Positions 22,666 to 64,000 of a DNA stretch of 64,000 nt are shown here, piece after piece (the stretch's first letter is position 1; every line of letters begins with the position of its first letter). The translations under genes and the position numbers were made by a program. The DNA comes from Gracilaria domingensis (lineage: Eukaryota > Rhodophyta > Florideophyceae > Gracilariales > Gracilariaceae): NCBI GenBank assembly GCA_022539475.1, contig VCMS01000253.1, positions 1 to 64,000 of the forward strand, written 5' to 3'. Under the pieces are notes generated by a model. It made no database searches. It had not been told where the DNA came from and saw only the letters and a list, made by a program, of their open reading frames with translations.

Positions 22666-25399
22666 TAGGGAACTACAAGGGAAAGAGTTCTGCTCGTGAC
22701 AGTTAGAAGTTTGGTGATGATGATGACTCAGATGAGGTAGCTGGTCTCATCGTAGCACAATATGAAGACCATGAAGACCACATAATGGAGACAATTGACC
22801 TTACTGTGGTTGACATCGACAGTTCTGAAGTTGTCACACTGGATGAGACTGCATTTGTGGCCAACCATAAGGTTCAGAAGGGACAGGACTACCGCTGGTA
22901 TCTGGACTCTGGCGCTATGAGGCATATGACCAACAACAGAAAGTACTTCATCACTCCCATACAATCATCCGTGATGAAGACTGTGTCGGTTGGCGATCGA
23001 AACGTGGTCAGTGCAGCAGGAGAAGGTCTCGTTCAATGCTAGGTCCGCAATGAAGACGAGAAGCCAGTGAAGGTCAATCTCTACAATTTGCTCTACGTTC
23101 CCAACCTGATGTGGAGCTTAATGTCCGTCAGCTCTACTCGTCGAAGGGCTACATGACGAGATTCATAAGTGACACTACTGGATCTGGTGTGATGGTGGTT
23201 ATGAAGCAGGACACCACGGAGATACTCACCGTTGGGTTCGAACTCGGAGAAGGACTGTATGAATTGCAACTATTCCTTACCCCTGAAGACACAGGTGCAG
23301 CCTTGCTTGCTCGCGGTAATGAAAAGTTCACGAAACTGTGGCATCGTAGACTTGAACAAACTAGTCTTGACTACCTTCGGAAAACGCTGGGAATTCTTGA
23401 CCGGGTCTCTAAGACTACCTTGAGTGAAATGGGGCACTGCGAACCATGCGTAGATGGAAATTCCACACGTGCGCTGCGATTACCCATCGCCGTTACCACT
23501 GTCAAGGAGATCATGGACCTTGCCCACTCCCATGTTCTTGGACCAGTGGATGTTCAAACTTTTTCAAATTCAAAGTACTTTGTTTCCCTCTACGATGATA
23601 AGAGTCGTATGTCTGCGATCAGGTTTCGGAACAAGAAACAGGCACCTGAACGCGTGAAGAAGATGATTGCATTGTTTGAAACGCAGTCCGGACGGAAGTG
23701 GAAACGAATCCGCTTTGATAATGGAGGAGAGTACATCTCAGAGAACTTTGCGGAATAGTTTCACCGTAGAGGCAGACTTGTTGAACCTACTGCTGCTTAC
23801 AGCCCCGAGTCGAATGGGAAACCTGAAAGGTTGAACAGGACCCTCAATGACAAGGCAAGCACGATGTTAAGGATGCTGGAAGGAACTCCGAGAAGTAGCC
23901 AGCTATGGGCTGAGGCTGTCGAAAGGCTAACCACCTCAGAAATAGAACATATGTTCGAAGAGAGAGAGAGAGAGCCAGATATGACCCCGATCGAGGCCTT
24001 TACTAAGAAGAAACCAGGTTTCTCCCATTTGAGGACCTTTGGGCCGCAGTGTTATGTTCATATTCCTAAAGCACGGCGTAAGCGAAGTGCCAAGTACAAG
24101 AATAGAACAATCAAGGGCATTCTTGTCGGATATGAAAACGAATCTTGAGACAGAGTCTATGTTCCTGATCAGAACAAAATGCTTGTGTCCAAAGATGTCA
24201 CCTTCAATGAAAGCGCTATCGGATGGTCACCATGCCTGCCCCTACAAGAAGTCGAGGTAGATCTCTCCGGGATCCCTCGCATCGCAGAAGTAGAAGATGA
24301 AGAACTGAATGATGATATGGAGATTGAAGAAGTGGACACGGAAAAAAAGATGAATACTATGGAAACGGAAGAAGATGGTTCGCACTAAGAAGAAGAAGAT
24401 CAGGTTATTTATGTCGGCGCTCACGGAGAATACACATATGATCCGGAATTGGTTGCGCACTACCCTCACGAGCCCAGAAGGTCAGGAAGAACTCGCAGGA
24501 GGCCTGAGAGAAAAGAAGCCATGAGTAGCAACCATGCCCAGCAATGGAAGTCTGCTATGAGCGAGGAAATAGATCATATGCGCAAACGAGGAGTACGGGA
24601 ACTGGTACCAAGCCCACCAAGCTGCAGATCCAGCATCAACCGTTGGTTATTACTGAGAAAGCGAGACCAATCAGATCAAATCGAGCGATACCGTGCACGA
24701 CTGGTAGCTCGGGGATTCACGCAGGGCGCTGGAGTAGACTACGCTGAACTTTTTTGCCTGTCGTAAAGTACAGCACCGTTCGCGCAGTCTTAGCGATGAT
24801 GATGGCACATGATATGACGGCTATGCAGTTTGATGTTGGCGCTGCATTTCTGTATGGTGATCTTAGAGAGGACTTGTACATGACTCAAGCTGAAGGTTTA
24901 ATAGATGCCACGAAACCGGACCATGTGTACAAGCTACGCAAAGCTATCTATGGTCTGAAGCAGGCTGAAAAAGCCTGGACAACAGAGTTCAAGTCCATCA
25001 TGCAGGCAATGAGATGTAGCCTATCAGAGAATGACGCTGGACTATTTCTTTTGACAAAGCGGAGAATTGGGTGTTGATTCTAGTCTAGGTGGACGACTGC
25101 ATAGTTGTTGGAAGATCTAAGGCCCACCTATATGATTTCGGCAGGATGCTACAGGAATGTGTAGAGATTCGCATCTACGATGAATCACGAAATTTCCTAG
25201 GCCTGAGCATGGAACGCAGTGCGGATCAGCGAACACCTCGACTCCACAATGCACCAATGCTCCAGCGACTAGCAAAGCAGTTCAATGTGAGCATCGCAGC
25301 GAGCGTTAATGTCCACTTCACTTCCACAGTGATCACACCAGCTTCGAGAAAGCGAGAGAACCCCAAGAATATTCCATTTCGCGCCTTACCCAGGCGGAA

Positions 25400-27060
25400 A
25401 AAATGTACATTTGCAATAGATTAACAATGTATATACTAGATAAGATTTCAGTTTTTTGATTTTATTTGATTTGCCAAAGTTCAATAGATTTTTCAATAGA
25501 GCTCTCAATACACCTTCAACAGACAGCTGGAACCCGTCTATGAATTGAAAATGTATTGAATTTACAATTGTCAGATAATGATGGAGGCATTCACCTATCG
25601 CAAATCCAATGAATGAGCGTCACGGCACAGAGTAGTCAGTATAGTTGATCGAAAGACGTCTGTTCGGTGCAGTATGGGAGATGTATCAAGCAGAAATACA
25701 TAATGTATTGATTGTAGTCACTACATACCCGTAGGTGAAACAACATAACTTCATGAACACATATTTTGGCAGAGCGGGAATCATTCCCAACTGTGTGGTA
25801 TTGTGGAGAAGTGTTCGTTATCATGATGATAACGAACACTTCTCCACACTACTACACAGTTTTATTGAAATGGAACCTGGTTTGCAGTTGCATGACTATT
25901 GATTGTCTACCAAGAACGCATACCGTCAATGTAATGTAGTCGTCGATACTTTCAATGCAACCTAATGAACGCATGTCGGTGATCCATCGCTTTTTAACGA
26001 CAGTCCAACAGACCGGCTATTATGAGAACCATGAAACCTTTTGGCATCGAAACCCTTTTCCAAGTCACTTTCCGGATGATGCCTGTCGATTATTGATGAC
26101 TAGTAGGTACTCATTCACTCTTCGATCTTGTGTATGATGTCAACATGTTTCCAAGTCGTCCATTCTTCTTCTCTGTGCACCTTTTGGAGCACGATCATGA
26201 ACATGGCACTAAAACTGCTCTTCTAAGCCGTCTCTCCAATGCCCACGTAAGTTCCTTGTCGCTACGGAACAAGAAGATATGGCTGAACGCCACTTCTTCT
26301 ACGCTGGGCGCTTCCAAGGCTCAATAACAAGAGCAATCTGCATCTGCGCCTTCTCCCACCAGTCCTTCTTTGATAACTCGCGATCGAGATTGTCGCAGCA
26401 CAGGAATCCGAATACGTCCGGAACGAAGATCCTGTAAAAGCCATCCATCTACAGGCCGCATTCCACAAGATTGCAAATGTTATTCCAGCAGGAGGAGACT
26501 GGATCGACATGGTTGCCCTTGCCACTCCAACAAGGATGCAGATGGTCAGTATTCGTCTCGTCGGCGATCTCGATCACTCTTCAATTCTCAAACAATCGCT
26601 GCTATGGATGTGCTCTTGTCTTCACCTTGGAGAGAAAAGCTCCCACTACTAACGGCAAGAGATGAAGGAGCACGTCCGTAACATTCTCCAATATGACCTC
26701 TATTGTCAGTCCCACCACCAAGGACAGAGCTCGCACACCCGCATCGCTACTCGCCCATCGAAGAAGCACAATATTCAGGTCAGCTCCATCCATCTTTCTC
26801 CTCTTTCAGCTGAATGTAGAGAGCGGCGCCCCGGCTTCTCACGATAAAGTTCGCGTACTTACCATCATTCCGGTGAGCTCTTCGAAGGCGCTGAATATCA
26901 GCCATTCTGACGAAGGCTGAGCCAGAGTTTCCATCAGTGCCACTCTTTGGCCCATGTAGGAATCTGCTTCATCTCTTTTGATCACCTACCCATGCTTTCC
27001 ATTCAGTGCCCAGGGAGAGGATTTGAGATATATAAATCTGGGTTCCATCGTTTGCCAAAA
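25400..27060. other. Left subterminal region of giant transposon
   Basis: AT-rich subterminal DNA with repeated TCAATAGA-type octamers and a 73-bp palindrome, then (26.1-27.0 kb) sequence with short ORFs in all frames and no recognisable protein. I credit no gene here. Confidence 0.5.
25789..25861. repeat. Near-perfect palindrome in transposon left end
   Basis: Arms of 36 bp with two mismatches and a single-base spacer. The inner 23 bp of each arm (from tgtggagaagtgttcgttat) are perfect. It is placed about 400 bp inside the left terminal inverted repeat, so it may form a cruciform or be a transposase or regulator site. Confidence 0.9.
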
Positions 27061-27073
27061 AACTTGATTATCT

Positions 27074-30000
27074 TCACAGGCCCTTCAAGAACACAAAGGG
27101 TTTTTCCTTCAAATTCTTCTGCTGGTTGTTCTGGCTGCGATACACTTCACGCATGTCATCAACAAAGTACGTCCTTTCTTGGTTACGGTTGCCAACCACA
27201 ACAATTTGCTCCACCAAGTTAACCTGATGAGAGATAGTTGTCACGCACTCGACCGAGACGTTTTGGAAAACGATCTGATTCTCTGCAGAAGCATATCCCC
27301 TTTTGTAAAGCTGCCCTTGCTCTCCTCGCAGAAGCCCCTTCGTTACCCAGTCCGCTACAAAAAGCATGCTGCTCTTCCCCTCCAATGTATGCTCGAAGAA
27401 GAACAGAATGCGGCCATAGAAATTGTCGATCACAAAAACATCTTCTTCATCGGAATGACCCCGATACTTTCCGACAACAAAACAAGAAGGACGGTGGATA
27501 CTTTTTTCAAGAGCTCTAGTAGGATCACTTGAGCCCACGAATGTCGTTATGTACCCGTTTTCGCATTGTGAAATCACTAGCCGACTCCAGAAACTTACGA
27601 GGTCACTCTCAAGAAACGATATTCACTTGCATCATCAAAGTGGTCCGGCTGCGAACGCTGGTAGTAGTCGAGTAGCAAATTGCCCATCTTCATATTATGG
27701 CTGTCTCCAAAACTCCTTAAAGACACCAAACACTTCGGATGTCTGAACACGTGAGATGGGGAATTAGATTCCATTTTAGTGCGTTGTAGGTTGGGTCTAT
27801 CAAATTCTCGATCGTCTAAGAAAGGTATTACCAGCCCGTTTCTGATGCAAAGTGTCAGAGTTGACTCACGGAGCTTGATATTCTCTACGAATGACTCGGC
27901 AAACAAAACAGTAGCATTGCAATTTCTATTTTGTGATCCCACAAAGTTTTCGACAGCCCATTGAGAGAGTAGAGAGACAGGACCACAGTCCTGGATCGAC
28001 TCCGAGGTGTGGAGTATAAGGTGGTACGTATATCTGCAAAGGTTGACTCGATCTGGTCGGTACTGATAGTAGTGCTCTTCATAATGGGCGTAGAATCTCC
28101 TCGAAAGTCGAGATATATGCTCCACGTCTCTGCTACTTACTGACCAGCGGCATAGAAGCTCACAAAGATCCACAAAATTTTCCAGCCATCCATGATATGA
28201 GTTGAAAGCATTCCATCAAGTACAACTAAACTCATTTCCAGTACAAAAGATTTCCACTCAGTTTCCTTCCATTTTCCTTTATCTTCGATCTTCCGCGGTC
28301 TTCTTATCGTGGAACTAAAACTACGTCCAGCTGTAACCAACCGCTCATTTAGTTGCTCTTTCTTCTTTCCATGGGAAAGAAAATGTAGATCTTCGCATCC
28401 TGACACATCACCACAGCAAATCGCAACAATGTGAGACGCAATGTTTTCAAAGAGGAGATGCATGAGGTCGACGGGGAAACTACGAAAAGGAACTAGTAGT
28501 GAAGACCTAGAAATGAATCTCCTAGATTGATTCCTCGCACACCGAGTTGTTTGCAACGATCTTCAAGTTGAGCCTTTGTCATGCTAGAACTGTCCCTCTC
28601 GATTCATTGTAGCTTCTGCATTAACTCTGAATCTGAACGAAGTGGCTGACTGTTTGGGTTCCATAACCTTTTCCTTCTGATCTCCCCGTCGTATTTGAAT
28701 ACGCTTGGATAGTATGCATGGTTATGTGGCTTGGAAAATACGCCATGAATCGAGCAGAATCTGCATGGAAGAAGAGCATTATAACCGCGGAGGTTACCCA
28801 GATTACTCAAAGCTGCTAAATCAGACAATACGAAAAGCAGATGAACCCTGACCACAATGGTCTTCCCATTCCATAAGCGAACTAAACACCCTTTACCGAG
28901 ATCTTCGAGCTCTGCCAACATTGGGTGCAAGAAAGAAGTTAAGTTTGCTGGTGCGTTTGGACTCGGAATTACTGTTAGAGGCATGATGTTCTCGAGCTTG
29001 AATCTTTCCGATGGAGCCAAGTTCAGTATGAAAAGAATGCAGGGCCAATAGCTGTAATCCACGCTCTTGAAAGATGATACGCCGTCGGTTGAGAAACTGA
29101 GAAAATTATCATGCTGGATACGGTTGCATCCACCGAGCTTATGTGCAGCTTCACGAAACAGCTTTCCGGAGAAGAAGTCCCGGTACCGCGCTCTGTGCTT
29201 CTCTTCAGTTCTTAGTTTCCGCAGATTGGCTTGGAAATACTTAAAGAGCTTCGGGCCTCCCTCCTTTGATCTCAGTCTTGCCTGCAACCGTTCGCAAATA
29301 CCAATATAGGTAAATGTAAAGACTGCAGCGGGTGTCTGTTGGCACTAGATGTTTGAGCAAGGAAGGAAGGATCCATCCTGAGTTCGGGAAAGGGCCTCAT
29401 GAACTTTAGAGCAGTAGGTAAACGTCGTCACAAATAGTCCTGAGCAATCTAAAATTGCCTTTCTCAATCCGTTCCACGATCGATACCCAGTACTAAATTG
29501 GCTCAGAAAATCATCCATCATCGCTCTAGTTACCAAGGAATGTTTCATTGCAAATCCAAGTAGAAATTTGTGATTCCTCATGAACTCACTCAGTTTTGGG
29601 TTCGTGATCGGCTGCGTTTGCCGACAGTGATGCAAATCGAGGTCTGAATCGGACGCAGAACTATGAAGAATATCACCAACTCTTATTCGGCTGCATGCAC
29701 TGTCGTCATGAATTTCGCTCAGGTCAACGATATCAGATTCCCTCTCCAGAGGAAACCCAGTTGGATCTGGACTGTCAATGAACTCATTAAATTCAGCTGC
29801 TCGGACACCCACCTTATCGTCTTCCATGAAGTGCGATACAATGTCGTTCTAGCGAACTTCTTCATCTGAAGCTTCTGATGCAAATCCAGACTGCGATATC
29901 AGAATATGCTCTGAGGCCCCAGAAATAGAAGGGTTATTACTTTGAGAGTCCGTTTCATATCCTTCGTCATCACCTTGTACATCAGGTGTCTCCGGATAAC

Positions 30001-30238
30001 CAAAGCATATGGTTTCACCCGGTTTCTCTTCCTCGACATCCTCAGTTGAATTATGTTGGGGCTGAGACAGAATTAGAGAAGATGGGAGATTGGTAGAGCC
30101 AGTCTGATTTGGGAGATATTTCATATCATCAATGACTTCTGATCTAGTACTCAGTGTTGGTACAGCTGGAAAAGACTCGTTCTCATAAGAAACCTGAAGT
30201 GGTTTTGGAACCACTCTGGAATTGTTGGACTGGGACAC
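27074..30238 (-). pseudogene. Tnp2-like (CACTA/Plavaka-type) transposase
   Basis: Expected to cut and paste the giant element by DDE chemistry. Reading from 30238 down: an acidic, disordered N-terminus; a Tnp2 core (FLSFSTDGVSSFKSVDYSYW, ILFILNLAPSERFK, LLFVLSDLAALSNLGNLRGY, LPCRFCSIHG at 29.1-28.75 kb); FPVDLMHLLFENI, the usual D-x-M-H box (about 28.47 kb); and a DUF4218-like segment (YTYHLILHTSESIQDCGPVS, about 28.02 kb). The last is a C-terminal beta-rich part (YGRILFFFEHTL). Interruptions include in-frame TAG at 29849-29851, TAG at 29345-29347, TGA at 28604-28606, a frame change near 28500, and further frame changes near 28.15 and 27.58 kb. All three stops would be CAG or CGA before a C-to-T change. 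It is inactive unless stops are bypassed. Confidence 0.8.
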
Positions 30239-30953
30239 CGCCGTTCTCCAGTGCCGGAATGCCGTAGCCCTCGTTACTATTCTCCCAGGAATTCATTTGC
30301 AATGAAAGCATGGAAAGCAAAGAAAACCAGCAGAACCCATATTCAGATCTCTTGAAAGATTCCGCAAAGAGTAGTTCTATGTTGCTTGGAACTGCGAATG
30401 GTAGAGGGTTAGAAAGAAACAGGCTCCAACTTCTTCAGAGATACTTTTGTGCAAAAAGATGAACTTTGCGACAAGAAGTAGACAATTTTTCGTTTCATCT
30501 TCTCCGGTTTTCAGTTGAAGTCTCCCCTTTCCATTCGATGGATGCCTCTCTGTCGGCATCGACACTGCAAATAGGAATCGTAAGAGCTTATTCTCCTCGC
30601 TTCATATCGTCCTCATCTCTACCCACCAGTTATGGTCGAACCCTTCGCAGTCGAGAGGCCCTTGAGTCAGGCCTCAACTAGGATAATCGCCTCTCCCCTT
30701 TCCCTTTCGCTTTGACGGCCACATCTGAGAAACCGTTTGCTCCAGTCAAGCGAAAATCGCTGGTTACCTCTTGACACCGCACCACGAATAGGAGCGTTCT
30801 CAGAAGCTTCATCCTGGACATCATCTCTTGTTCTACTCATCGGAGTCATATCAATCCCCGAGTTCACGTGCAACGTCTGGTTTGGAGCGTGCAACTCTAT
30901 TCCTCTGTCTGCTTATCCCATCTTTGCTACTCTTACTTCCGCAGTGCAGTGAT
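30239..30953. promoter_or_regulatory. Divergent spacer between transposase and helical protein gene
   Basis: Head-to-head intergenic DNA of about 0.7 kb that must contain both promoters. Short ORFs on both strands are not credited. Confidence 0.35.
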
Positions 30954-32084
30954 ATGCAGTCGTATAAGCGGGGTATAATCAAGCATCCTCACTCCGAAGG
31001 CAAATCTGGGAAAGTATATATTGGAGATACTCTGAAGGCTGCCATCGATGAATATAACGAGAAGAACCCCCAGAACTCCATGCCTCCTATTGCGTGTTCG
31101 GGAAAGACCTACTCCTACCGCTCGTTAGCAGCGGCCGGAAAGAAACTGGAGTCGTCTGAAATGCTGCATAAGTTTTATCGTAGGCGATCCTTCCATGAGA
31201 TTGAACTCATCATGTCCAACAAGAAGTACGAATTTCAACAAGAGATTCGCAGAATTTGTGAGAGTTTGGCGGAAAAGTTCCCGCATATTGTCGTCACGGC
31301 AGACCTCTGGGCTGCACATGAGGCTGTAAAGAGCAAGGTTTGCAACCGAAAGGCAGAGCACAAGAGAGAAGTTCGAAAGCGTGAGGGTCAGTCGACGGGT
31401 TCGGCTGAGATGAATGCGAGAATGCGTCAAATGCAAGAGATGGCTGCCAAGAAAGCCCAGCATCTAGTAGAAGCACGTCGCCGAAAGGCTCAGTCGAGGA
31501 AGGCCGCCCGACGAAGTGAAGCAGGAGGTGTACGACATAACAACAAGACCGCAAACGCGCCAAGCAGCGCAGATTTAACCAATTCGCGTCCACTTTCACC
31601 TCAGCTTCGTAGTCGGGAAGGGGTAGAGGAAAGTCGCCTATCAGTTCCTTCCCAGGTGCAGTCTTCAGAGAAGTCTGAGTTTTCGGAAGAAGCCACTACT
31701 CCACTCTTTGACCTGCGGGAGGATCCAAATGTCCTATCTGTTACTCGTGATAAGAAAATTGCCCCGAATGAGACCGTTTCCAGAGACACGGCCCAATCAA
31801 TTCACACAGAGAATGATGGAGATCGACATGAACGTTCGACTACTGGCGGTGTCCCAGCGAGCAAGAAGCGTATTGGGAAACGCGAATCCAACAGTAATGA
31901 TGCAATTAATATTGTGCTAGACGACACTTCTATGCCATCCAAGAAGCACAAGAAATTTCAAGCTCCAAAGAAGAATGCTTCTGCCAAGAGGAAATGTACC
32001 GAGACAAATGTAAGCTTGACTGTAGATGATTCACCTGCACGTAAGCGCAGGAACAGAATGGTACCCAAGCGGTACAGGAATTAG
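30954..32084 (+). CDS. Basic, helical protein divergent from the transposase
   Basis: Intact 376-codon ORF from ATG 30954 (the frame is open further upstream but less protein-like). The N-terminal about 110 residues look folded (GDTLKAAIDEYNEK, TYSYRSLAAAGKKL, HKFYRRRSFHEIELIM). Then come a Lys/Arg-rich coiled coil (MRQMQEMAAKKAQHLVEARR) and a long disordered tail with basic clusters (KKHKKFQAPKK, ARKRRNRMVPKR). It reads divergently from the Tnp2-like gene over about 0.7 kb. It is unrecognised. By position it could be a TnpA-like DNA-binding accessory protein that recognises the subterminal repeats, which is inference only. Confidence 0.55.
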   Translation: MQSYKRGIIKHPHSEGKSGKVYIGDTLKAAIDEYNEKNPQNSMPPIACSGKTYSYRSLAAAGKKLESSEMLHKFYRRRSFHEIELIMSNKKYEFQQEIRRICESLAEKFPHIVVTADLWAAHEAVKSKVCNRKAEHKREVRKREGQSTGSAEMNARMRQMQEMAAKKAQHLVEARRRKAQSRKAARRSEAGGVRHNNKTANAPSSADLTNSRPLSPQLRSREGVEESRLSVPSQVQSSEKSEFSEEATTPLFDLREDPNVLSVTRDKKIAPNETVSRDTAQSIHTENDGDRHERSTTGGVPASKKRIGKRESNSNDAINIVLDDTSMPSKKHKKFQAPKKNASAKRKCTETNVSLTVDDSPARKRRNRMVPKRYRN

Positions 32085-32543
32085 ATTCTGGACTACGTTA
32101 TACAGTACGAATACCTTCAGCTTGTAAGTGATGAAAGGCGCGAAACCAGTCTTCGACGGCATCCTGCAATTGGCTGCAGAAGATCCATGGGTTGTCGTGC
32201 TTCTATTTGGGGGTTTCAGCAGGTTTTTCTTATCTCATTGACAACAAAAGTAAACAAATGCATTCCGGAATGAGTTTGTAAACCCGGGTGGATATAAAAT
32301 GGTTATCGCGATCACCTCTCTTTGATATGTATGCATTGTAGGCGAAACAGGATATGGAAAATATGAAAATGGGTTTCGGTCTCTTTGCAGAACCGTAATA
32401 CACCACCTTGTTAATCGCTAAACAATAAACAACCCCGTTTCGGCTGCCAACTGACTCATAAGAGTCATCAAAGCGGTATGGATCCAGCGGTGTTGACGTC
32501 ATGATACCGCAAAATGGGATGGGTGACGGAACGCCCCAAAGAA
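32085..32543. other. No gene seen
   Basis: AT-rich stretch. A 90-codon minus-strand ORF (32502-32230) has no recognisable feature. GC content jumps sharply at about 32590. Confidence 0.4.
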
Positions 32544-33107
32544 TTAGGAAATGATTTCATTACATGCATTTTGAACTTCTCTCAAAACGCACAGCTTGAA
32601 CAACAGCTCGCGCCAGTCTCCTTCGCGCAGCTCGAACGCGTCCGGCAGCGCCTTGAACGAATCCACCCCGCACGCCTCGTCAAAGAAGCCGACGGCTGGC
32701 CACTGCGCGGCCACCAGCAGCCCGTCGCGCGCGCCGCGTGGCAGCGCGCGTGGCAGCGCGCGATGCTGCTCGCTCCAGTTCTTGCTCAGCAGCGCCAGGC
32801 TGCGCTCGATGTCGTAGCCGACGCTGGCCGTGAGGGTGGCCGGCACCAGCGCCGCCGGGTCGAGTCGTGCGCAGCTCACAACCTCATGGCGCACGCTCCA
32901 CACGGCAGCGAGCCCCTCGCAGAGCATGGTCTTGAGCTCTTGCAGCCCGCCGCACAGCGCGTGCATCTTGCCGGTCGGCATATACGCCTCCAGTACCGAG
33001 AAGCGCCGCTCCGCGCAGAAGAAGTGTACATGGGGTCGATGCCCCAGTTTGACTGGCGCAGCACGTGCTTCTCGCTCATAAGCTTGCAGCGCCAGAATCA
33101 ATTTCAA
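32544..33107 (-). pseudogene. GC-rich captured gene fragment
   Basis: About 500 bp of markedly GC-rich DNA in an AT-rich element. The minus strand encodes a protein-like sequence (FFCAERRFSVLEAYMPTG, HALCGGLQELKTMLCEGL, SVGYDIERSLALLSKNWSEQ, ELREGDWRELLFKLCVL). In another frame the start reads MSEKHVLRQSNWGIDPMY, which would precede it naturally, so one frame change near 33025 is likely. A duplicated gcgcgtggcagc unit at about 32740-32760 is present. Several frames are open because of the GC richness, so the strand call rests on composition. I do not recognise the family. It is probably a host gene fragment picked up by the transposon. Confidence 0.45.
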
Positions 33108-33862
33108 GAGATTTCGAAATATTATTTTTGAAATATTGAAAAGCGTAACGCGAAGCAGACATTTTCATTGGTCGAGTAGCGTCATCGGAACTCCTAGTTG
33201 CTCCAACCCAATCTCTAAATATCCCTATTCTTCTCGTTGCGGTCATCTAATGAAATCAAAGAGACACACAGAATACCACATTTGATCTCATCGCAATAAC
33301 CATAAACGTGTGAATTGGGGGTCTAGAGGAAACGTAGCTCTTCATATTGAGTTGTTCATATTGAAATCTTGAATACCTTCTGGGTGCGGTTTGATGTGAA
33401 TCTCACACTGCCAGGATAATTGAAAACGGCAGAAAGTGAGTAAAAATGTGAAGCTGTTGGATTTACACGTTGCAGATTTGGAATGTATGCTGCAAGAAAG
33501 CATTAGAAGCCTGAGACACGTGTCATTCTGCGGTAATTTTTAGCTGTTCCTCTTCTCTATCTGCCTTCCCTTGTCTTCCGTGCATGACGTCTTCCGCACC
33601 GACCTGAAATATTGCCTTTCATCCTTTTCATGGTTTTCAAAACGATTGATTGTTCTTCTAACTCTAGTATCTAGAGAAAAGCGTAATCGTCAATTGTTAC
33701 GAAGCATTATTTGCTCCCAAACCGGGCTGAGCGATCTGTAATCCCGGATATTAGAAATTATATAAAGCCATAATGGAGACGGGGAAAAGCGTTCATCAGA
33801 AGAGAGAACTAGAAAATTGAATTTGTGTTGAGTGGAAAAGAAATAATTGTTGCGTTGCGGAC
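33108..33862. other. No gene seen
   Basis: AT-rich spacer. A possible leader with a TATA-like ttatataaag (about 33757-33766) lies about 100 bp upstream of the next ORF. Confidence 0.4.
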
Positions 33863-34657: not shown

Positions 34658-34914
34658 GATGTACTGTCCTTATTGATATGTCCTCTCTAGATTATATCTA
34701 CCTCGTGCGGGACTGTATTCAAAGGCTTATTTCTTCAGCAACTTTGAAGGCCATTTTGTACTGGTTGGGCCTGATTTATATCACATTTGTGCTGTCAGAG
34801 AGGACTTCGCTCTCACCCTTGCCCGACTTGGGATCCCTAACAAGCTCTATCCATTGTCCAATTGCTGCTGTCATGCTCAATGCTGAGGTCGTCACAAACG
34901 AATCCCTGTGAGAA

Positions 34915-38240: not shown

Positions 38241-38249
38241 ATCTTGCAG

Positions 38250-41200: not shown

Positions 41201-43250
41201 ACGTATGCTGTGTTAGCAGCGCCTCATCCGCCATCGCACGAACACTCTCTGCAAGTACGCGAAGAAATATATCGAATGTCGACTCTCATACCCGCTGCTA
41301 CCATGAACAGCACAATGCCCTGGTGCGATATCGTCGTCGCGGTGGATGCCTCTCTCCGCAAAGGAGCCGTGGTGTACACGACAGTCGCGCCCGACGTACT
41401 CATGAATCTTTGGGAGGCTGGAGCGTTCAACAAGTGCCCTCTTGTCACTACCCAAGTATCTTCTACCCCTGCTGGCAGACGGAGCAACCACAACGCGTAC
41501 AAATGTCACGAACTGTTGCGATCGTTTGTCCTTGACGCAGAGTGGACAACAGCGTTCTCCTTTCCATGGAAGAACGACGCTCACATCAACGTTTACGAAA
41601 GGTGGACCGCATGCCTTGCCCTTCAATTGATTGCCTCGCGAAAAGTAACAAGACAGCGCGTTCTCGTCCTGTCCTACTCCCAAGTCGTTATAGGAACTTT
41701 CACGAAGGGCCGGTCATCAAGCCCAAATCTGCAATTTCCAACCAAACGGTTTGGTGCCGTCTGCGTCGGTTGCGACCTGCATACCCTCCTTTTCTACCTT
41801 CCGTCGCACCTAAACCCTGCGGACGGACCCTCAAGAGACTGAACGTGAGCACAACCGAGTCTTCCCCCCCTGTTGCTAAGCCCCCTGTTGCTAAGCAATG
41901 GGAACCCTCACGCGCTCATTTGGATAACAAGACTTCTCCAACCCCTCGGTACCCATCGTCCCTACCGCCCTTCCCTGACACACCTGCTGTTCGAATGCTC
42001 AAGAAGTTATTGAGCAGAGCATCGAACTGTCCCCACGATTCGCCAGCCTTAAGAATGTGGGAATCAATACAGTGCTCCGCCCGAAACGCACCAGCAAATC
42101 AAGTGGCCGCAAAATCTGGCCGCTCAAAAGCAGGCCAATTGTTGCACAAAGGTTTAAACGAGAGAAGCCAATATTGGCTTGGCCAAGAAAAGGCTACCGT
42201 TGTGATTCCTAGGCCAGCGAGATCATTCTTTAAACACCACCCCCTGATTGCTGATAGCGTGAATCGCAGCACAGAGCTACTGTACTCCAAGGCTTTAGAT
42301 CGATTTACCGAAACGGTAGCGCCTTACTTCAATAACGTTGAGCATCTCGATGAAATACTTCTTCAGTACATTGAAGCGAATCATGAAGACTCGCCTACAC
42401 CAGGGCCAAAACAGGAAATGAGCAACTTGATGTGCGGGCTGTTCAAGGTCTTACCAAAGACGAAAACGTCGCTCGGACTTTCGCATTGTGCCCTGAAAGG
42501 GTGGGAAAGAACACAAAAGCCCGCATCTGCCACTCCCATGACCAAACAGCTAGCGCTAGCTATAATATACAGAATGATCGAAAGGAACAAACGCAGTCAG
42601 CCGCTATCCTCACGTTCGCCTGGGGAGGTTACCTCAGGGCGTCAGAGGCAATTGGACTCAACAGCGATGATGTCGCCTACCCCGGCGATTATCGTCTCTC
42701 TGCCTACGTGAGAAGCGTCACATGCGTCGCAATCAGAAACGCCAAAACTGGGCCCCTACAGTTCACGCCCATCTATGACGAAAATATCGTTTCTGTAGTC
42801 CGTCGTTTGCAAACAATGCTGCAGAGCAAAGTTGGAAAGATGTTTTCAATAACATACGCGACTTATGCGAAGCATTTACGAGAGGCCTGTAACTTCTTTG
42901 GACTGGATGATCTGAAAATGTCAACTCATTTGGCTCGAGTCGGAGGAGCTCTTCATTCTTTCATGTCAGGGAAGCCAATCGCGGATATTACAATTGTCGG
43001 ACGTTGGAACTCACGTTCTTCTCTCAGGCATTATTTGACTACTGGAAGATCATGGCTGCTCAGGATCAAATTGAGTGCAGATCAAGAAAGTCTTCTTCAA
43101 GAATATAACCGCAGCTTGAAATATTATACATTACCGAATGCTAACGCAGCACAAGAACGACGAAGTTCTATTGCGGGATTTTGGGGAAGCAGCTCACACA
43201 AGCATGGTGAGCTGTGAAAAAGAGAAAAGCTCTCTTTGGACGCAACAAGC
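38250..43250 (+). mobile_element. DIRS-like tyrosine-recombinase retroelement fossil
   Basis: Parts in order: a gag-like protein (about 38.4-39.65 kb); an RT-upstream region (39.76-40.3 kb); reverse transcriptase with IIDDVNVV at the catalytic box (about 40.85 kb) and RNase H ending in LNPADGPSRD (40.3-41.84 kb); and a tyrosine recombinase (about 41.85-43.2 kb) with YLRASEAIGL, HLARVGGA and GRWNSRSSLRHYL, the R, HxxR and Y boxes. The combination of RT/RNase H with a YR and no DDE integrase defines DIRS-type elements. Terminal repeats were not identified, so ends are approximate. It looks nearly whole, with a few breaks, and is younger-looking than the Copia fossil around it. It lies inside the giant DNA transposon. 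Confidence 0.85.
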
Positions 43251-44093: not shown

Positions 44094-46626
44094 TCAGCTG
44101 TTTGGACGATTCTGTTCATGATGGATACGTTTCAGCGCTTTCACTGTCCTTGGTCGTCTAGTCAGTGAGGTGCAGTGAGGAAGGAAACCCTGTTCATCGG
44201 GATCCAATCTCTCTCTTCCTTTCGCAGGATTCGCCCGGGACAGGTACATATCGAGCAGAAACTCCGCATCTTTTCCTAATGTTGGCTTCCATAGCTGACA
44301 CGGCGAGCGATACTCTCCTTGCAGCAACCGCTCAAGCAGATTCGAATATGGCTGCTTCAGCATCTTTTAAAGCCCTGGAGTCGGCATAGACAAACACTTT
44401 GAATCCAGTGTCAAGCACATGTACGGCGTCGTATTTCACGAATTTCTTTTCTAGCTGTACTTCTGCTATCAAGCCCGTCGCATCATCCGTCATAACATTT
44501 GTAAGCAGGCGAAGTGACATCAGAAGCGACGCCAATGAGCATTCAGCCCGCAAGAAGAACGAACGCAAAATCAACGAAATGTTGGGGTGTATATGCTCAC
44601 CAAGAAGCAAACCGCGACGGAGTTCATGCATCAGTCTCACAACTCCTACAGCCTTCTCCGACCCAAGCAGTAACCGTTGTAAAGTGACATCAAGCGATCG
44701 ACAAGCGATGGATGGTTTCGTGAGAGCACCGTCTAGAAGCACACACGCGTTTTCAAGTATGAGAGCTCAGATTCCAGCATCCAAAGAGTTGAAGTAGTCT
44801 ACCCCGTTTTGGTCAGTGTTATTCTCACTGTTACTGCCCTAGTAACCTTGGAAGATTTAGCCGCCAACTGTAGGACAGCAGAGTGGGGAGGATCTGCTTC
44901 AGCCTCGATGTTGAAATTCGGCTTGAGCATGGCGGAAAATCCAGTTATGGGATCAATGCCTGGAACAACATAATTCTGCGGCCAAGCTGTAGGAAAAGCT
45001 GGTCCAATGACTCTTGCGACGCTTAGCGGAGAAGAAACACGAATGGATACAACACCCGGAATTGTGGATGTTCGGACCAGAAATACGGCAGCTTCGGCAA
45101 GAGCAGACGCCGCCGAATAGCTATGTGCAGCCGAATACACTAGACGTCCTCTTGACACTTTTGCAGTGCCAAGAAGAATTTCTCCTGCGAATCCTTCGGG
45201 TGGCGCAAAGCACATACAGTGTAGGGCAATGCGCGTATCCCCTGCTTTTCAACCTACCTGCTCATCGAGCTTTGTAAGGGCCACTTTTGCTTGGGTTAAT
45301 CACTGGAACCCTGTTCCAGAATCTAGAAATTCGCTTGGGAAACGACTGGAGGCATGGCATGTTGTGCAAGTGCTGGTGGTCCAGTAACCAATGACAGAAT
45401 GCGAGAGCTCTCGCTCTCAACCACGTCTTTGATGAGTTCAAATGCAACAAAGCGGGCCACATCGAGCCTCCTAGATTCCGCTTTGAAGGAAGTGGCACCA
45501 CGTGTTTCTTCCTTTGAGCATCTTCGCCCAGCTCATTATCAGGCGTAGTTTCCAGGTTCCCTGCAAAGGCTGAAGGTGCTCGTGTTGTGATGAAAACATC
45601 TGTAGGAGCTCTCTGCAGCTCTGCATAAGTTCCAGTCATATGAGCTGTGCCGTTCACGACAGATGATGGGGGATTGAGAAAGAATCGCTCTTTCTCTTTC
45701 GCGGTGAGGTTTGAAGCCCTTGCCACGCTCATCATTTTCAGAGTGGGAATCGTCTTGTCATCACCATTTCTGACAGCAGCTGAGCATCCAGAATCTGAGG
45801 TAAGCAGAGCGAAGCGAAGGCCACTTTCGACAGCAGCGATATGGGCTGCGGCAGTGGCTGTGCGCGCCCATTCTGCTTCTTTACTCTCAAGATTTTCATC
45901 CAAAATAAGAACGATGGCACCTCTACGACTTCATACGGCATTGACAGATTGAGGATGCTCGTACTCTACGATATCAGCATAAAACTCTGGGTATGATGAA
46001 GGATCGCTGAGAGTTTTGAAAGAGGTTTTTCCAGCTTTTTTATCGTTCCGGCCGCAGAATTGACATGTCCATTGGGACGACCCTTTCAATAATCCTTCTG
46101 CGCCGTAAGCTTTAGCCACGAATCATCCTCACGTTCCGCATCTGTGCGGTGCACGGGAAACGCGGTTGGTTTCGCGCAGTTCACCAAACGGTGACCATAC
46201 GAATCCAAGCGGTAGTTCCTGCGTTCATTCAAAGCGATTAAAGCAACAGTTAGCCATAATGGAATGAGAGCAACGGGTTTCAGGCTATGGACAAACCTAC
46301 AGATTGCTCAAGGGCATCATGGGAACGAAGAGCATTGGCTGCAGAGAAGAGAAGAATAGAATAACCAGGACGACCCTCAAACAATTGAGACAGCTCTTCA
46401 GTCTTGACGCGCATTAAAATGTATTCTTCTTCATCTGCTACTTGTTCCGGTTTCTTTTCCATGGAAAGCGATTGTTGCTCAGTTTTGTTCTTGGGGGGGG
46501 GGTTGGGGCTTTGGGAGTGATCTTGTTACCGTCTCGTTCAAATTGGGTAGGTGCAACGTTACGTGCACGTGGCACTCTCCGGGACTTGCTGCACTTTGCT
46601 GTCTTCTGACAGTCGCAGGGGGCCAC
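44094..46626 (-). pseudogene. Divergent Sec23/Sec24-family (COPII coat) gene
   Basis: COPII coat proteins form the inner layer of vesicles budding from the ER. Visible in Sec23/24 order, reading down from 46.1 kb: a zinc-finger half (QWTCQFCGRN) and SSYPEFYADIVEYE; the trunk (vWA-like) opening GAIVLILDENLESKEAEW; a beta-sandwich part (VARVIGPAFPTAW to VTRAVTVRITLTKTG); and helical FNSLDAGI then ALILENACVLLDG. Last comes the gelsolin-side segment (LMHELRRGLLLG, HPNISLILRSFFLR, AVHVLDTGFKVFVYADS). In-frame TGA at 45931-45933 and a second near 44776, and a frame change near 44800, break it. The 45.26-45.2 kb junction may be an intron. The upstream part (46626-46280) is poorly defined. It is far from canonical Sec23 and is cargo of the giant transposon. 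Confidence 0.65.
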
Positions 46627-47839
46627 CGCAGAGGTATATTCTCTGCTGGACGTGGCTGAATTTTTGAGTCAGACTTTGACGTGTCTTGCTCCTCTGATTT
46701 TCTCTAAGTCATGCGAGTCGGTAGAGTAGTAGAAGAAAGGCTTCGACCAAGAAAAAGAGCCAAAAAGGACTGAGGTGTTTTGTTTGTGACAGCTGTGTCG
46801 GAGACGTGTGAAACAACGGGGGATGCTGGTGTTTGAGTTATCGCTTTTTGGCGTATCCGGAACACAGTAACTCGTTGGGGAGAATTCGAATGCCCATAGA
46901 TATTGGTAGCAGCGCGATGGATACGCGAAGGTACGGACGGGACGACGGCAGCTCGGCAATGACATGCAGCTTCGAGTGTTGGGTTGCAAAGGTAACCGTT
47001 CAACATATAATTTGTAACTCCTTTCAGGGACTTCGTTTTCGCGTTTTCACGCGGCCATATCTCTTCCAATCTTGCTCCAATTCACAAACCTCTAAGTTGT
47101 CTACAAAGCCATATGTCTTAACTTGCTACGGCCTGAGTTTAGCAGGAACTGGCTCCCTGCTTGTAGAGGAAGACAAATGTTTGTACACCTCGCCAAATGC
47201 ACCCAAAAACAAGGTTGTATATAATTCGCAACACGTGCTCCGCGCACTTCAATAAAACAAAGGCTCATAGACTTATTGAGAAACTAATCTCCTTGAGCTG
47301 AAGAATGACAAAAGAGTGCTACTGTTGTGCTGCGCTGACGGCCATAATTACTGGCGTCGAGAGGTTACCAACCGTTTCCACCACGACTTCTTAGTTTTGA
47401 ACATTGTGCTCTAAACCGGTGGTGACATCGTTGAGCTCTAAAGTATGCTCTGGGGGGGTGTATAATATGATTACAAGCTTATTGTGAAGCCGAGACATAG
47501 GGATCATATATATATAATCTGGGAAGAAAGTAATTAAGTGCAATGCGCAGGAGAGAAGTTGTGCGCTAAGCGTTTGACTTTCTGAACGCCCTCTTTGTCG
47601 AAAGTGGGGCTGGGAGCATCAGTTTTGAAACTCCGATCTATATGCAAAACTGCAAATTATGTGTTGAACAGTTACAAGTAGTTGCAGCCCAAGCTTACAC
47701 CACGGCGAGACGTCAGTTTCCCATCATACAGAAAAATTACACGTGGATTCCTCGAGGTTTAAATTATGGATCCATCCTTTTCATGTTTCTGGTCACCATT
47801 CTACACCGATTCTGCTCGAGGTGATAGTCTGCACAGGAT
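46627..47839. other. Divergent spacer between Sec23-like gene and next gene
   Basis: A 121-codon minus-strand ORF (47069-46704) could be a 5' exon of the Sec23-like gene. A G9-10 run lies at about 46492-46502, just before this stretch. Otherwise AT-rich sequence with a tatatatataat stretch near 47508. Confidence 0.35.
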
Positions 47840-48784
47840 GTGTCATACTCTCGAATGTCGAGTCGTTATGCGGTACTCGATATACCATTGGTACGTCTAT
47901 CCAAGTGCATTGAGAAAGCAACAGTCTGGTTTCTTGGACTTCTTTATGGAGAACAAGATGATGGAGCTCAACGCACTACCATTTTGCCCAAGCTCGGTGA
48001 AATAATTCATCTATGGGTCAGTGATTTATTGGCGGTCGATTATCCGGCCGAAGAGGCTGAGGACATTTTTTCCGCCTTCTCTAAACTTGTTCAGGCGGAG
48101 GATGTCCCTAAATTAGTCAACTCGTCTGTGGTACCGATTTCAGATGTGGACAAACTCATCCATGCTCACTGGGTTCGGGCTGCCCGCAACATGATTGATC
48201 TTCCTTTACTTCCGGCAAAACCAATGGAGACAGCTATTGATGCTCTCACTGTAACTCTGAAGCTTCTCGACTGCATTGCTGCCAAGGACAATCGACGTTC
48301 TGCAGCTGCAAATACAGCCCCTGGGCATCTCATCTTCTCTACATTACGTGTCATGATTTCCACAGATAACCAAAATCAGCATCCTTCAGATATTCGCGCT
48401 CTATGCGAACAGTCTATATCTCATTCGCGTCGTACCGGACGGTCTGAGAACGAAGCAAAGTTATTCTCATCTGTTGTCAATCATGTGTTGCCTTTGATTC
48501 GCGCCGCTATCAAGGTTGAACTCAGCTCCTTTAATGTACCTTACAGCGTACATGAAGTAGCTCCAACTTCGCATGTGTTACACAGCCTGTTGTGTGAGGT
48601 AAATGAGGACAAGCTAAATGAGACAGCTGAAGAAGTCCTTCCGATCTTGTACGACCTCGTTGAGAGTGTCAAGGAATCAATACGAGTACAGTCTTTTCAT
48701 TCCGTATCCTTTCTATCTTCCCGTTTGTCTTTTTCTGTCATGGCACCGGCACGTACTTCAAGATCGCTCCAAGTTGAAGACTAA
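47840..48784 (+). CDS. Unknown helical protein (314 residues)
   Basis: Uninterrupted ORF of helical, Leu/Val-rich segments such as PKLGEIIHLWVSDLLAVDYP, ETAIDALTVTLKLLDCIAA, NHVLPLIRAAIKVELSSF and ETAEEVLPILYDLVESVKES, which suggests an alpha-solenoid (HEAT/ARM-like) or helical-bundle protein. No catalytic motif and no membrane span. The last 40 residues (after about 48690) look less natural, so the true 3' end may use another frame or an intron. It is transcribed away from the Sec23-like gene and is cargo of the giant transposon. Confidence 0.5.
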   Translation: MSYSRMSSRYAVLDIPLVRLSKCIEKATVWFLGLLYGEQDDGAQRTTILPKLGEIIHLWVSDLLAVDYPAEEAEDIFSAFSKLVQAEDVPKLVNSSVVPISDVDKLIHAHWVRAARNMIDLPLLPAKPMETAIDALTVTLKLLDCIAAKDNRRSAAANTAPGHLIFSTLRVMISTDNQNQHPSDIRALCEQSISHSRRTGRSENEAKLFSSVVNHVLPLIRAAIKVELSSFNVPYSVHEVAPTSHVLHSLLCEVNEDKLNETAEEVLPILYDLVESVKESIRVQSFHSVSFLSSRLSFSVMAPARTSRSLQVED

Positions 48785-49240
48785 GCCGATCCATTCGCGA
48801 GGAGAAGCCTACTTCAAGTCGGTATCCAACGTGAAAGAAGTCGTAGTGCGTCATATGCAGGCTCGATGTGGCCACTCAGTTTCAAATGTCCAAGGCCAGT
48901 CACGGATCATTGATGCCAAGGCTGCTATAGAGTTGTCAACATTTGTTTCACCTCTTTAATTAATTTTCAAAGTGAGAAAACGTCAATCAAAAGTTATCCT
49001 AATGGCGCCAACGCGCCATGCATTCGCGGACGCTGCCGCCGCTGGCACGCTACTGCTCAGTGAGCGCCCCAAATGAGCAGATCCGCATTTGGCAAAGCCG
49101 TTCCCCTGTCTACGTCGCCAATTTGAGCCATAGTGGTCTTCTATCAAACTCAAGTGGCAAGCCATTTTCCGCAGTGACCAGCGCTTATTACTGTCGAATA
49201 TATATCTTTTTATGCCTACATCTTCCGGCCTGGACATATG
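48785..49240. other. No gene seen
   Basis: Short overlapping ORFs on both strands. A GC-richer patch at 49.0-49.1 kb may be another captured fragment, but nothing is recognisable. Confidence 0.3.
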
Positions 49241-51860
49241 AAATGGCCAATGGTTCATCACAACGGACTTCAACGAAAGACCTGGACGATAGCGCCGCCG
49301 AGCACATGGAAGGCATTACTGCTCCTCCAAAGTCACCAGCGGATACGAACCCTTCGGCAGCAAACACAGCTTCCGATAAAGAAATGGAAAAATTGGCGTG
49401 GAATGACAGCACTACACTGAAGCAACATGAAATTACATGACCCGACACTAATGCTATGCCTCCTGGACATTTACAAGCGCCGTCTACCATGGTTATACAT
49501 CCTAAGCAGGCAGCCATAATAACCTCTGAAACCAATTCCTACTCTTGTGATAAACCAACGCTGGGCACAACACCCAGCAAACCATCCGCTGCTCCATCCC
49601 AAACACCGATGAACAAGCAAAACAGCGACTCGGCGGAAGATAACCGCAATACGGCAGCCGTGAAACCACCTGCACAGGAACTACCAAACGATGAACACAA
49701 TTCACGTCACCAAAACGACGACGAACAAGCCAAACAACGCCTCGAAGAGACCGACAACGAGCGAGCGTCATCGCACATTTTAGTCGCCATGATCGAGGCA
49801 GAGGGTTCTGTTCTAAATTAAGCTCCCGATTCTTCAAATAGTACGGAACGAGAGCACCAACCAGCGTCTAATACTGCTGCCTGTCTTTCCAGTTCTGATA
49901 AACCAGAACCCAGTTCAACGGAGCCCCAAAGCATGAAAAGGTATGGAAACCTAAGAGATGCAGAAGGCCCTGCAGATTACTTTAAGCACGTTGAATGACG
50001 AGAAAGAGCCACCACTTGGTCAAACGGGAACCACTGCTAGCGGGAGGCAACACTCTGGGAGCAAAGCAAACCAGAGCGCTCAACAGGAGTTTCCGAGTTC
50101 TCCACAACATTCATCGAAGGGCCAGGTTGAAGACCTTATGAGAACAGACTCAATACCTGAAAAGGATTCCGGGACGCGTCAAGGGCAAACTGTGGTCAAA
50201 GATGATGTAGAAGACACACAGAAAGCAAAGAAAATTGAAGATGGTTTGTCAGAAGCAAAACTTGCTGAGAAAACGGAGTATTTGTTTTCAACTGAGCACG
50301 GGGAGGATATCGAATAATGAAGACGGCACAAGGGAAGCTGGTGCAGTTGGAAACGCAGAGAGCTCCAGTAATGAGGAGCCAAACAATTCAGGAAAAGAAT
50401 CCGTTGCAGACGTTGACAATCCTCTTGTTTTAGATCCCAAGCTCCATGACATGAACGCAGGCAATACAAAAACTGGAGACCTGCAAGACGGAGTCGAAAA
50501 GAGAGAGAATGATGGAGGCATGCCGGCAAGCGCTGGAGATGAACCGTCTAATTCGAAACTAAATGCAGTACCCGCAGTTGAGAAAACAGAACCCATGGAA
50601 GAAGCACCAGCTTCAGAACAAGCTGCATCGCTAATAGAGATAGGTTCAGCTAACCAGGAAACGGAATCGATCGCAAAGGAAGTAAAGGCGGGAGAGAGGA
50701 AACACTTTTGAAAATATTAAGACACTTGCTTGAAAGATTCCGATAGCGGTAGTAAGACGGGCAACAAGATTTCTGAAGATGTTGAATGGCAGGAAGTACG
50801 CCATCGAGGGATTATATTGGTCTAGAGAAAAGCGGAGAATGAGAATACGGCGAACAACAAGAAGTCGCGAAAGAATGTTCGCAAAGCTTTACAATCCCGG
50901 TTTCTGAGGACGAGGAGCACGAGTAGAGGACGAGCACCCGATTCTTCGTTTGATTCTAGCGGAATGCAAGATTCCACACCTCAGGAAGTCGGAAAGGCCC
51001 CTATTCAGAAATCGTCTGATACTGCCTCTCAGGCTTCAAAAGGAAAGGAAGGTGGTGTTCCAGAGAGTGATGGCCTCCGTCCTGTCATGGAAGCCAAGGA
51101 GTTGACAATGAGAGTAGCAAACGCCGTGTTTGTGACCGAATACCAGCTTGGTGAGCCGAAGATTGCTAGACTCAAAGAAAAGGAATTGCTTCCGTTCGCG
51201 CGTCTGACTTTCAAGGATAAGAACTTACAATCGAGATCAGCTACGGGCCTACTGTTTCGCCTATGGAGTGGAGCGGAGAAAGAAGACGGAGATGGAAGTT
51301 GATATGGCCCACTATCTGTCATATTGGAATCGCGGAAAACCAGGATTTGCTCTACACGAATATGTGCCCTCTAGCGGTCGCATTATTGATAAAGACGAAT
51401 TCTTCGTGAATCGCAGCTCGCAACCGAATCAAAGTGCAGCCTCCTTGGCAGGGACTTCGTACGGTGGAGTCGATGCAAACAGACGTTTCGATCCCTGGGG
51501 CAGTCGGCGTCTGGTAAATACGCAGACAAAGAAAGTGGTGCTAGGATGCATGGAGGCGGATCTGGGAATCTCCAGACGTCTCCGTCGACTCCATCAGCAG
51601 CGAACGAAAACAGAAGTGCATGACCTCGAAGCACACCTACAAGGCTACCGAGAGGATTTGGCACGTCCTTCAAGCAAAGAGTGCATGCAAGACAGGCAGG
51701 TGCAAAGTTCAAGGCGGCAGACAACGGGGTTGGCGGTACTATCGTAAACTTTGTCGAGAATGCAGCCGCATACTTTGAAAGAAAGGATACAGCGGAGGTC
51801 ATAGCGGACCAAACTAAGTCTTTTGAGACATATCAGTTCAACGTGGACCCCCTCAGGTGA
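49241..51860 (+). pseudogene. Long disordered protein with a folded C-terminus, interrupted
   Basis: Starts MANGSSQRTSTKDLDDSAAE and runs through about 1.6 kb of Glu/Lys/Ser/Thr/Pro-rich disordered sequence with stops and frame changes (for example near 49440, 49820 and 50317). A more ordered C-terminal region follows: AKELTMRVANAVFVTEYQLG, LLPFARLTFKDKNLQSRSAT, FALHEYVPSSGRIIDKDEFF, and finally IVNFVENAAAYFERKDTAEV in another frame, ending near 51860. I do not recognise the family. It is the last gene before the right end of the giant transposon, a position where CACTA elements can carry an accessory gene. It may also be cargo. Confidence 0.4.
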
Positions 51861-52832
51861 CAATGCTGGATTGAAAGCCTATTGTCCAGAAACCAGAACA
51901 GGGTCAGGTTAGATGTGCAACGAAACTGCATCTATCAGCCCGTACCGCCCATGTCTTTGACACGTAATAGAGCGTCAATGCGATCCTGACGCATCTGCAG
52001 ACTACCCAATATGAGTTCATATTTCTATTGAACTCAAAAAATTAGAATTATTCGCCTTGCACGAGCTATAGAAAATTTATTCAAATTATACTAAAAATGA
52101 TGTACTTCTTGACATTCTATTGAGAAATTAATGAGAAATAGTTCCGCCTGGGTCAGTAGGCTCTCTTATGCACTTGTCAAACACTGTGCGCCCTGACATT
52201 ACTTTCTCGGTCTCCTACCTTGCACAGTTTATGCAGCACTATAATCCGTAACACTGGAGAGCCGCCAAGAATGTTCTGAAGTATGTGCTTAGCACCTCGA
52301 AGACAGCGGATGTGTACCGCTATGTAGAGGAAACTAAGCTCGAAGAAGCATCTGATGCGGACTTTGCAGGTGACAGGGAGGATAGAAAGTCTACTAGCGG
52401 CTTCGTGTTAACATATGGTGGTGGCTCTATTTCATGGAGTTTTAAGAAGCAGACCGTAGTTGCTCAATATACGCTTAAGGCAGAGTATGTGGCCATCTCA
52501 TTCGCAGTTCGAGAGGGAGTATGGCTCCGAAGGCTTTTTAACGAACTGCTTGAACGTGACGATAAGTCTTTGGACATACTCGGGGACAATCAGGGAATGA
52601 TTACGCTAAGCAAGGATGAAGTCATCAACGAGCCCACGAAGCATATAGAGGTGAAGTACCATTTGGTGAAGCATGTAGTTGATTGCGGTCAAGTCTCGAT
52701 TGGCTACCGCAAGAGCAGCGAACTGGCAGCGGACCTCTTTACGAAGGCGCACGTAGGACATAAGCACAGGCGACTTTGCGAAATGTTTGGAATGATGATA
52801 CTTAGTCGTGATTAGATCGGAACGAGAGGGAG

Positions 52833-63826: not shown

Positions 63827-64000
63827 TATCTGTCAAAAAGACATTCCCATGGCAGCATAACCTAGAACAAGGTATCATCGTTGGGTTTGTCCCATAGATA
63901 AGACATTGTCTTCTGTATTCAGCCTGTGCACAAACATGTTTAGAAGTCTGCCATCATAAGTTCTGCTGTCAGTCAAAACCAGCAACTTCAGTATCACTTG
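63827..64000. other. 5' flank of hAT relic at window edge
   Basis: No gene is visible; the 5' part of the hAT gene, including any BED zinc finger, could lie here or to the right of the window. Confidence 0.35.

Follow-up and report, generated by a model that had tools for sequence, protein, structure and literature searches.

We found that a 64,000-nucleotide stretch of DNA from the red alga Gracilaria domingensis (assembly GCA_022539475.1, contig VCMS01000253.1, positions 1 to 64,000; hereafter the window) carries a Copia retrotransposon interrupted by a second, very large element at positions 25389-52152. The best explanation is that a single giant transposon of the EnSpm/CACTA superfamily, with a Transposase_21 (Tnp2) gene and CCC-type ends, entered the older Copia element by cut-and-paste transposition, landing in its polymerase gene; we give this a probability of about 0.8. 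One giant Tnp2-bearing transposon inside Copia had been proposed in a preliminary description of the sequence, and is supported by the single insertion of Copia, its reading frame, the ends of the element and the clustering of repeats near them. The same description suggested that the element would be a gene carrier of a class new to its lineage. This part was not sustained, as giant EnSpm/CACTA elements with accessory genes are already reported for red algae in the parts of two papers cited here (PMC6431247, PMC12477816). The element is a new, degenerate representative of an already published kind, its main structural features having published parallels. As a very large CACTA-type element it is clearly delimited, and its two ends, mirrored subterminal repeats and readable insertion point make both size and content measurable.

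The surrounding Copia element is bounded by two long terminal repeats (LTRs) on the plus strand, the 5' LTR at 21097-21460, its end set by GCACC, and the 3' LTR at 52833-53197, with 328 of 366 aligned columns identical (89.6%). GCACC, the 5-bp target duplication, stands directly outside both LTRs (21092-21096 and 53198-53202). An uninterrupted copy of the Copia target, a nearby duplicate on the plus strand, was detected at 19990-20435, where the 5' flank matched at 186 of 220 positions (84.5%) and the 3' flank at 185 of 232 columns (79.7%); the two matches abut and join at GCACC. Two separate flank alignments were used here, the alignment of the joined flanks giving only a trivial self-overlap of the region. 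The LTR pair, GCACC and the uninterrupted target copy altogether indicate that the Copia halves stem from a single insertion, and that 26.8 kb was added within. The left part (21554-25388, plus strand) consists of gag, Pol_BBD, integrase, SH3-like and RVT_2 pieces. Pfam matches were above the cut-off for Retrotran_gag_2, Pol_BBD, SH3_retrovirus and RVT_2 (24748-25074), and below it for gag_pre-integrs, rve, RVT_2 (24389-24763) and again RVT_2 (25089-25388, E 0.011); stops lie between the gag, integrase and RVT_2 pieces. The right part (52156-52812, plus strand; VGSLMHL...) is RNase H-like by eye and contains one in-frame stop. No relative of Copia was found in a scan of viral contigs with the joined Copia peptide (4 pattern matches, 0 confirmed) or among phage records. 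An inverted pair at 13207-13552 and 22256-22601 (82% over 346 nt) perhaps marks a second fragment, in opposite orientation, related to the Copia interior.

A perfect 11-bp terminal inverted repeat (TIR), CCCAGGCGGAA, was found at 25389-25399 (plus strand) and 52142-52152 (minus strand), and an exact pair of this kind agrees with the short TIRs of the EnSpm/CACTA superfamily. These are the only two exact copies in the window, against 0.03 expected, and none of 100 shuffled sequences contained two. From outer end to outer end the element measures 26,764 bp. Both ends adjoin the break in the Copia frame, as the preliminary description had stated: the left side reads ...NPKNIPFRAL up to the insert and the right side (S)VGSLMHLSNTVRPDI... 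beyond it. The spacing R-x-x-V-G-S-L at the junction is what we take to be usual for Copia. The flanking triplets are TTA on the left (25386-25388) and TCA on the right (52153-52155), likely a 3-bp target duplication with one base changed rather than an exact one. Removal of one 3-bp copy lets the Copia frame run on across the element, the right side resuming at VGSLMHLSNTVRPDI after 3 extra bases. With respect to the 2- to 3-bp duplications of EnSpm/CACTA elements, the 3-bp duplication earlier called plausible would suit the frame and is imperfect in sequence.

Subterminal repeats, a further feature of the superfamily, were detected at both ends. The octamer TCAATAGA occurs five times in the window: at 25481 and 25493 (plus strand), at 52024 and 52116 (minus strand), and at 54553, outside the element. 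The first four lie within 150 bp of the ends, two per end and mirrored, as described earlier; the left group (25414-25500, plus strand) also includes CAATAGA at 25414, and the right group spans 52024-52123 (minus strand). A total of five is unremarkable by itself, being reached in 9 of 100 shuffles; it is the clustering that is unusual. An 8-mer present at least twice in both ends was not produced by any of 3000 dinucleotide shuffles of the first 150 bp, TIR excluded, and by one of 3000 for 200 bp, while a 7-mer of this kind appeared in 14 and 15 of 3000, respectively. A chance origin of the ends is rejected by these counts and by the shuffles of CCCAGGCGGAA. A scan of viral contigs for CCCAGGCGGAA followed by TCAATAGA 65-95 bases inward returned 3 contigs, within chance by a rough estimate. 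About 400 bp inward of the left end, a hairpin at 25789-25861 has 36-nt arms, 94% complementary, with a 1-nt gap.

The transposase of the superfamily was identified near the left end. The open reading frame (ORF) at 28607-29344 (minus strand) matched Transposase_21/Tnp2 (PF02992) at E 8.7e-12, scoring 45.1 bits where the cut-off is 28.6, and the pseudogene around this tested domain extends over 27077-30292, its outer limits being set by eye. The gene is interrupted by TAG at 29849, TAG at 29345 and TGA at 28604, and its recognisable parts shift frame downstream. From the in-frame stops and the frame change just before ...SLLVPFRSFPVDLMH, these interruptions look like decay; introns could account for some of them. 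The Tnp2-like transposase proposed earlier for one end is therefore present, as a broken gene, a state that went unmentioned in that proposal. DG-X3-F-X7-WP, CxxC and VDLMH are present in the sequence, two motifs being incomplete at their edges; all three are described for CACTA-related transposases in the part cited of PMC1636069.

The element contains 193 ORFs of at least 60 amino acids, of which 119 were compared with Pfam and 74, of 60-74 amino acids, were left out. In those Pfam tables that printed a curated cut-off, it was passed only by Transposase_21 and MGS_C. The table for 98 of the ORFs printed none; its mannosylglycerate synthase (MGS) matches were located by a separate scan, and six further families in it (E 0.012-0.042) were not assigned to any ORF. 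The MGS stretch lies at 32562-33047 (minus strand) within the ORF 32547-33164, with PF21967 at E 2.7e-19, above cut-off, and PF21969 at E 4.3e-6, just below. It aligns to residues 189-348 of the 382-397-residue chains PDB 2y4j/2bo4 (E about 2e-24), presumably from Rhodothermus, and covers the end of the GT domain and the C-terminal domain. The first half of MGS was not seen in the three upstream frames inspected by eye, nor among the upstream ORFs scanned with Pfam; as judged from its sequence, the stretch is a fragment and no working gene. G+C content over it reaches about 74% in 200-bp windows, the mean of the whole window being 47.0%. This mean lies near the 46.6% given for Gracilaria gracilis in the part cited of PMC10388701, a weak pointer to the host. 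A scan of genome contigs with the fragment gave 254 pattern matches and 0 confirmed; such a scan finds close relatives only and is silent on origin. The part cited of PMC4052329 speaks of MGS in connection with red algae, so that the fragment is at most an indirect hint at a red algal host. In the literature, where no search was aimed at exactly that, we met no giant EnSpm element described as carrying a piece of MGS.

The remaining interior is less well defined. The region 38286-43214 (plus strand) carries a gag-like ORF, a reverse transcriptase (RT) with an RNase H-like stretch, and a tyrosine recombinase, with RVT_1 (E 0.0054), DNA_pol_viral_C (E 0.0077) and Phage_integrase (E 0.008) in this order, all below the curated cut-off. 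It is a probable remnant of a DIRS/Ngaro-like retrotransposon; no terminal repeats, which in such elements are split or inverted, were found for this region, and a viral-contig scan with its RT gave 0 matches. At 44335-46098 (minus strand), zf-Sec23_Sec24 (E 0.058) and Sec23_BS (E 0.0073) follow each other from 46098 to 44335 in correct order, across several broken frames and both below cut-off, which points to a possible Sec23/Sec24-like pseudogene. An ORF of 430 amino acids at 30792-32081 (plus strand) is basic, has no family match, and shows coding-like codon use (z +5.2); a viral-contig scan with it, able to find close relatives only, gave 10 pattern matches and 0 confirmed. A cluster at 33821-36542 (plus strand), consisting of the partly coiled-coil-like ORFs 33821-34654, 35183-35824 and 36177-36542, gave sub-threshold matches only, with codon scores of z +1.9, +5.9 and +4.0, respectively. 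For an ORF of 318 amino acids at 47828-48781 (plus strand), matches were weak and the low-confidence model, mostly helical, is unusable (mean pLDDT 41). Several low-complexity ORFs in different frames at 49003-51744 (plus strand), examined by Pfam and codon score, are perhaps one decayed gene by eye. The codon score was trained partly on unconfirmed ORFs and is a weak guide either way; even the confirmed Tnp2 domain scored only z +1.3, and the RT and recombinase ORFs reached z +1.9 and +1.5, respectively. ORF-against-ORF comparison in the window linked no cargo ORF to any flanking gene, and scans for Rfam families and tRNA gave 0 matches each. The many non-transposition genes proposed earlier are in this way reduced to the MGS fragment above cut-off, the DIRS-like region at 38.3-43.2 kb, and weak matches or ORFs without family. 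A nested retrotransposon probably makes up one part of the cargo, and a gene fragment or pseudogene another.

Several observations weigh against a single giant EnSpm/CACTA transposon or against the contents assigned to it. The flanking triplets agree in two of three bases only. The ends begin CCCAG and not CACTA/CACTG, the plant type, or CAC; the element is accordingly not assigned to the plant-type CACTA, and a CCC start is published for animal members (PMC1636069, part cited). With one mismatch allowed, CCCAGGCGGAA is found at the same two sites where 0.85 are expected, and two or more turn up in 22 of 100 shuffles; with two mismatches, 13 matches in the window compare with 12.8 expected. 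As these mismatch-tolerant counts are near chance, the weight of the terminal repeat rests on its exactness and position. In Tnp2, C stands in place of the published [ILV] after WP, and EN in place of LG at the end of DxxH (PMC1636069, part cited). The viral-contig scan with the Tnp2 domain gave 3 pattern matches and 0 confirmed, and no relatives of this domain or of the 430-amino-acid ORF surfaced in such scans, which find close relatives only. The Copia right half (ORF 52252-52812) gave no Pfam match at E 1, and its naming as Copia is for this reason based on the LTRs and inspection by eye. A PDB search with the RT ORF returned no RT, only poxvirus D5-type proteins (E 0.16), taken as chance. 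The Sec23/24-like pieces scored worse when joined (E 0.062) than as a single ORF (E 0.0073), and in PDB they matched no Sec23, the sole match being Pvc3 (E 0.0052), likewise taken as chance. The published TRC elements discussed below make 2-bp duplications, against an imperfect 3 bp here (PMC1636069, part cited).

A smaller CACTA-like element with Tnp2 and a few genes of its own may have inserted in the Copia, much of the cargo being added later by independent nested insertions such as DIRS and retroposed pseudogenes; the 26.8 kb would then never have travelled as a whole. We consider this possible, at odds clearly short of even; it is a variant concerning the cargo and compatible with the core of the explanation above, so that the two odds overlap. 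It is in line with the 4.9-kb DIRS-like coding region inside the element, which without it measures about 21.8 kb, with the decayed state of the Sec23/24-like stretch, and with the lack of any other copy of the element within the window. On the other hand, neither an LTR pair nor any other repeat of at least 40 nt was found inside the element; repeats of 22 nt or more amount to a single direct pair, 25 nt long, and three inverted pairs measuring 28-36 nt. Nested insertions in Ectocarpus are, moreover, described as fixed among copies that still transpose (PMC12477816, part cited), so that nesting is compatible with mobility.

The left triplet TTA would suit a superfamily that targets TWA (TTA), PIF/Harbinger or another, Tnp2 being a mere passenger. 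This we regard as very unlikely, as Tnp2 is the only DDE transposase in the Pfam matches of the 119 ORFs compared, and the clustering of the subterminal repeats suits CACTA. A pair of independent short elements with identical ends, inserted nearby and trapping genome sequence between them, is possible in principle and very unlikely, and is rejected, since both Copia halves come from one GCACC-flanked insertion with an uninterrupted target copy, the outer junctions fall at one point of the Copia reading frame, no inner CCCAGGCGGAA end with 0-1 mismatch exists, and the inner matches with 2 mismatches (32064, 40533, 42614 and 43748, 4 of the 13 in the window) are as chance predicts. Two separate insertions, or ends at random frequency, had been named beforehand as grounds for abandoning the proposal; both are contradicted as far as one 64-kb window allows. 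Plavaka/KDZ elements are not favoured either, the CCC ends and 3-bp flank differing from the TGT/CATCA termini of Plavaka and the 7-/8-bp duplications of Kyakuja and Zisupton (PMC12730594, part cited).

For the single giant transposon, the following course is proposed. Tnp2, made by the element before its decay or provided in trans from a sister copy, would have bound the 11-bp ends, and the TCAATAGA subterminal repeats were probably the binding sites of an accessory protein. On insertion, 3 bp of the target would have been duplicated. The interior, carried passively, could take up fragments of genes, of MGS and perhaps of a Sec23/24-like one, and a DIRS-like retrotransposon could be tolerated in it. 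We infer mobilisation in trans and movement of the cargo together with the ends. That the element is or was a trans-mobilised giant vehicle carrying metabolic and secretory genes as a unit, including the osmolyte gene MGS, through which these could have spread inside one algal lineage or from one to another, appears improbable. If further copies share the interior, this would show that elements of such size take captured gene fragments along when they move, in this case part of a gene for osmolyte synthesis.

Comparison was made with published elements, each as described in the part of the paper cited. In red algae, EnSpm/CACTA families of Chondrus crispus have 16-20 kb and 4-5 ORFs (credited to Kojima et al. 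2013; PMC6431247), and giant EnSpm elements with multiple accessory genes are reported for Bostrychia moritziana (credited to Petroll et al. 2025; PMC12477816). The element described here has in common with them the EnSpm/CACTA type, unusual length and several extra ORFs; at 26,764 bp it is well over 10 kb, and it exceeds the 16-20 kb of Chondrus with 26.8 kb, or about 21.8 kb once the DIRS coding part is subtracted. Its own features are the dead transposase, the MGS fragment and the DIRS-like remnant, the likeness being one to published descriptions and not to sequences. Giant KDZ, EnSpm and Sola-1 elements of Ectocarpus carry accessory genes and nested transposable elements that as a rule are fixed from copy to copy, and their transposases are often pseudogenes (PMC12477816). 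Shared with the Ectocarpus EnSpm and KDZ elements are a length above 10 kb, nested unrelated transposable elements (here a probable one), accessory genes and a dead transposase, whereas the EnSpm elements there reach 15.2 kb in another host, against 26.8 kb here.

The TRC elements (Transposons Related to CACTA), including SmTRC1 and those of Tribolium (5.2 kb) and Aedes (9.2 kb), shorter than the 26.8 kb here, have TIRs starting with CCC, in Aedes CCCAGTCAAC (PMC1636069), and a CCC start is therefore already known for this transposase family. CCCAGGCGGAA contains this CCC core, and Transposase_21 with DG-X3-F-X7-WP, CxxC and a VDLMH stretch is likewise held in common; two of the published transposase motifs are kept only partly here. 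The 2-bp duplication of TRC, seen in 7 of 14 SmTRC1 copies (PMC1636069), was not found, TA standing on the left and TC on the right. In soybean, Tgm-Express1 is a 5.7-kb CACTA element with five host gene fragments (PMC1947982), and Tgmt* a 20.5-kb CACTA element with a 3-bp duplication and subterminal repeats (PMC2613891). Both have CACTA-type ends in contrast to CCC here, and the subterminal repeats of Tgmt* are more numerous and longer. Pack-type (gene-capturing) CACTA elements hold recognisable pieces of genes from their host; the MGS fragment is a candidate for such a piece.

Elsewhere in the window, an ORF at 1362-2198 (minus strand) resembles DNA adenine methylase, with PF01555 above cut-off (E 5.8e-12) and a CcrM-like match below cut-off (E 3e-9). 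As ParB-methyltransferase proteins are mentioned for transposons of red and green algae in the part cited of PMC12477816, the left side of the window may hold a further giant element. Three adjoining long ORFs at 5776-9676 (plus strand; 262, 676 and 366 amino acids), of which the 676-amino-acid ORF is ParB-like by eye only, gave no Pfam match at E 0.01 and no NCBIfam match above cut-off. ORFs at 62281-63832 (minus strand) resemble a hAT-type transposase by eye, with no Pfam match at E 0.01 for 62281-63141 and 63305-63832. Two palindromes at 4182-4329 (74-nt arms, 84% complementary) and 5333-5474 (71 nt, 96%) are copies of each other, with 95% identity over 128 nt, and look like fold-back elements or miniature inverted-repeat transposable elements.

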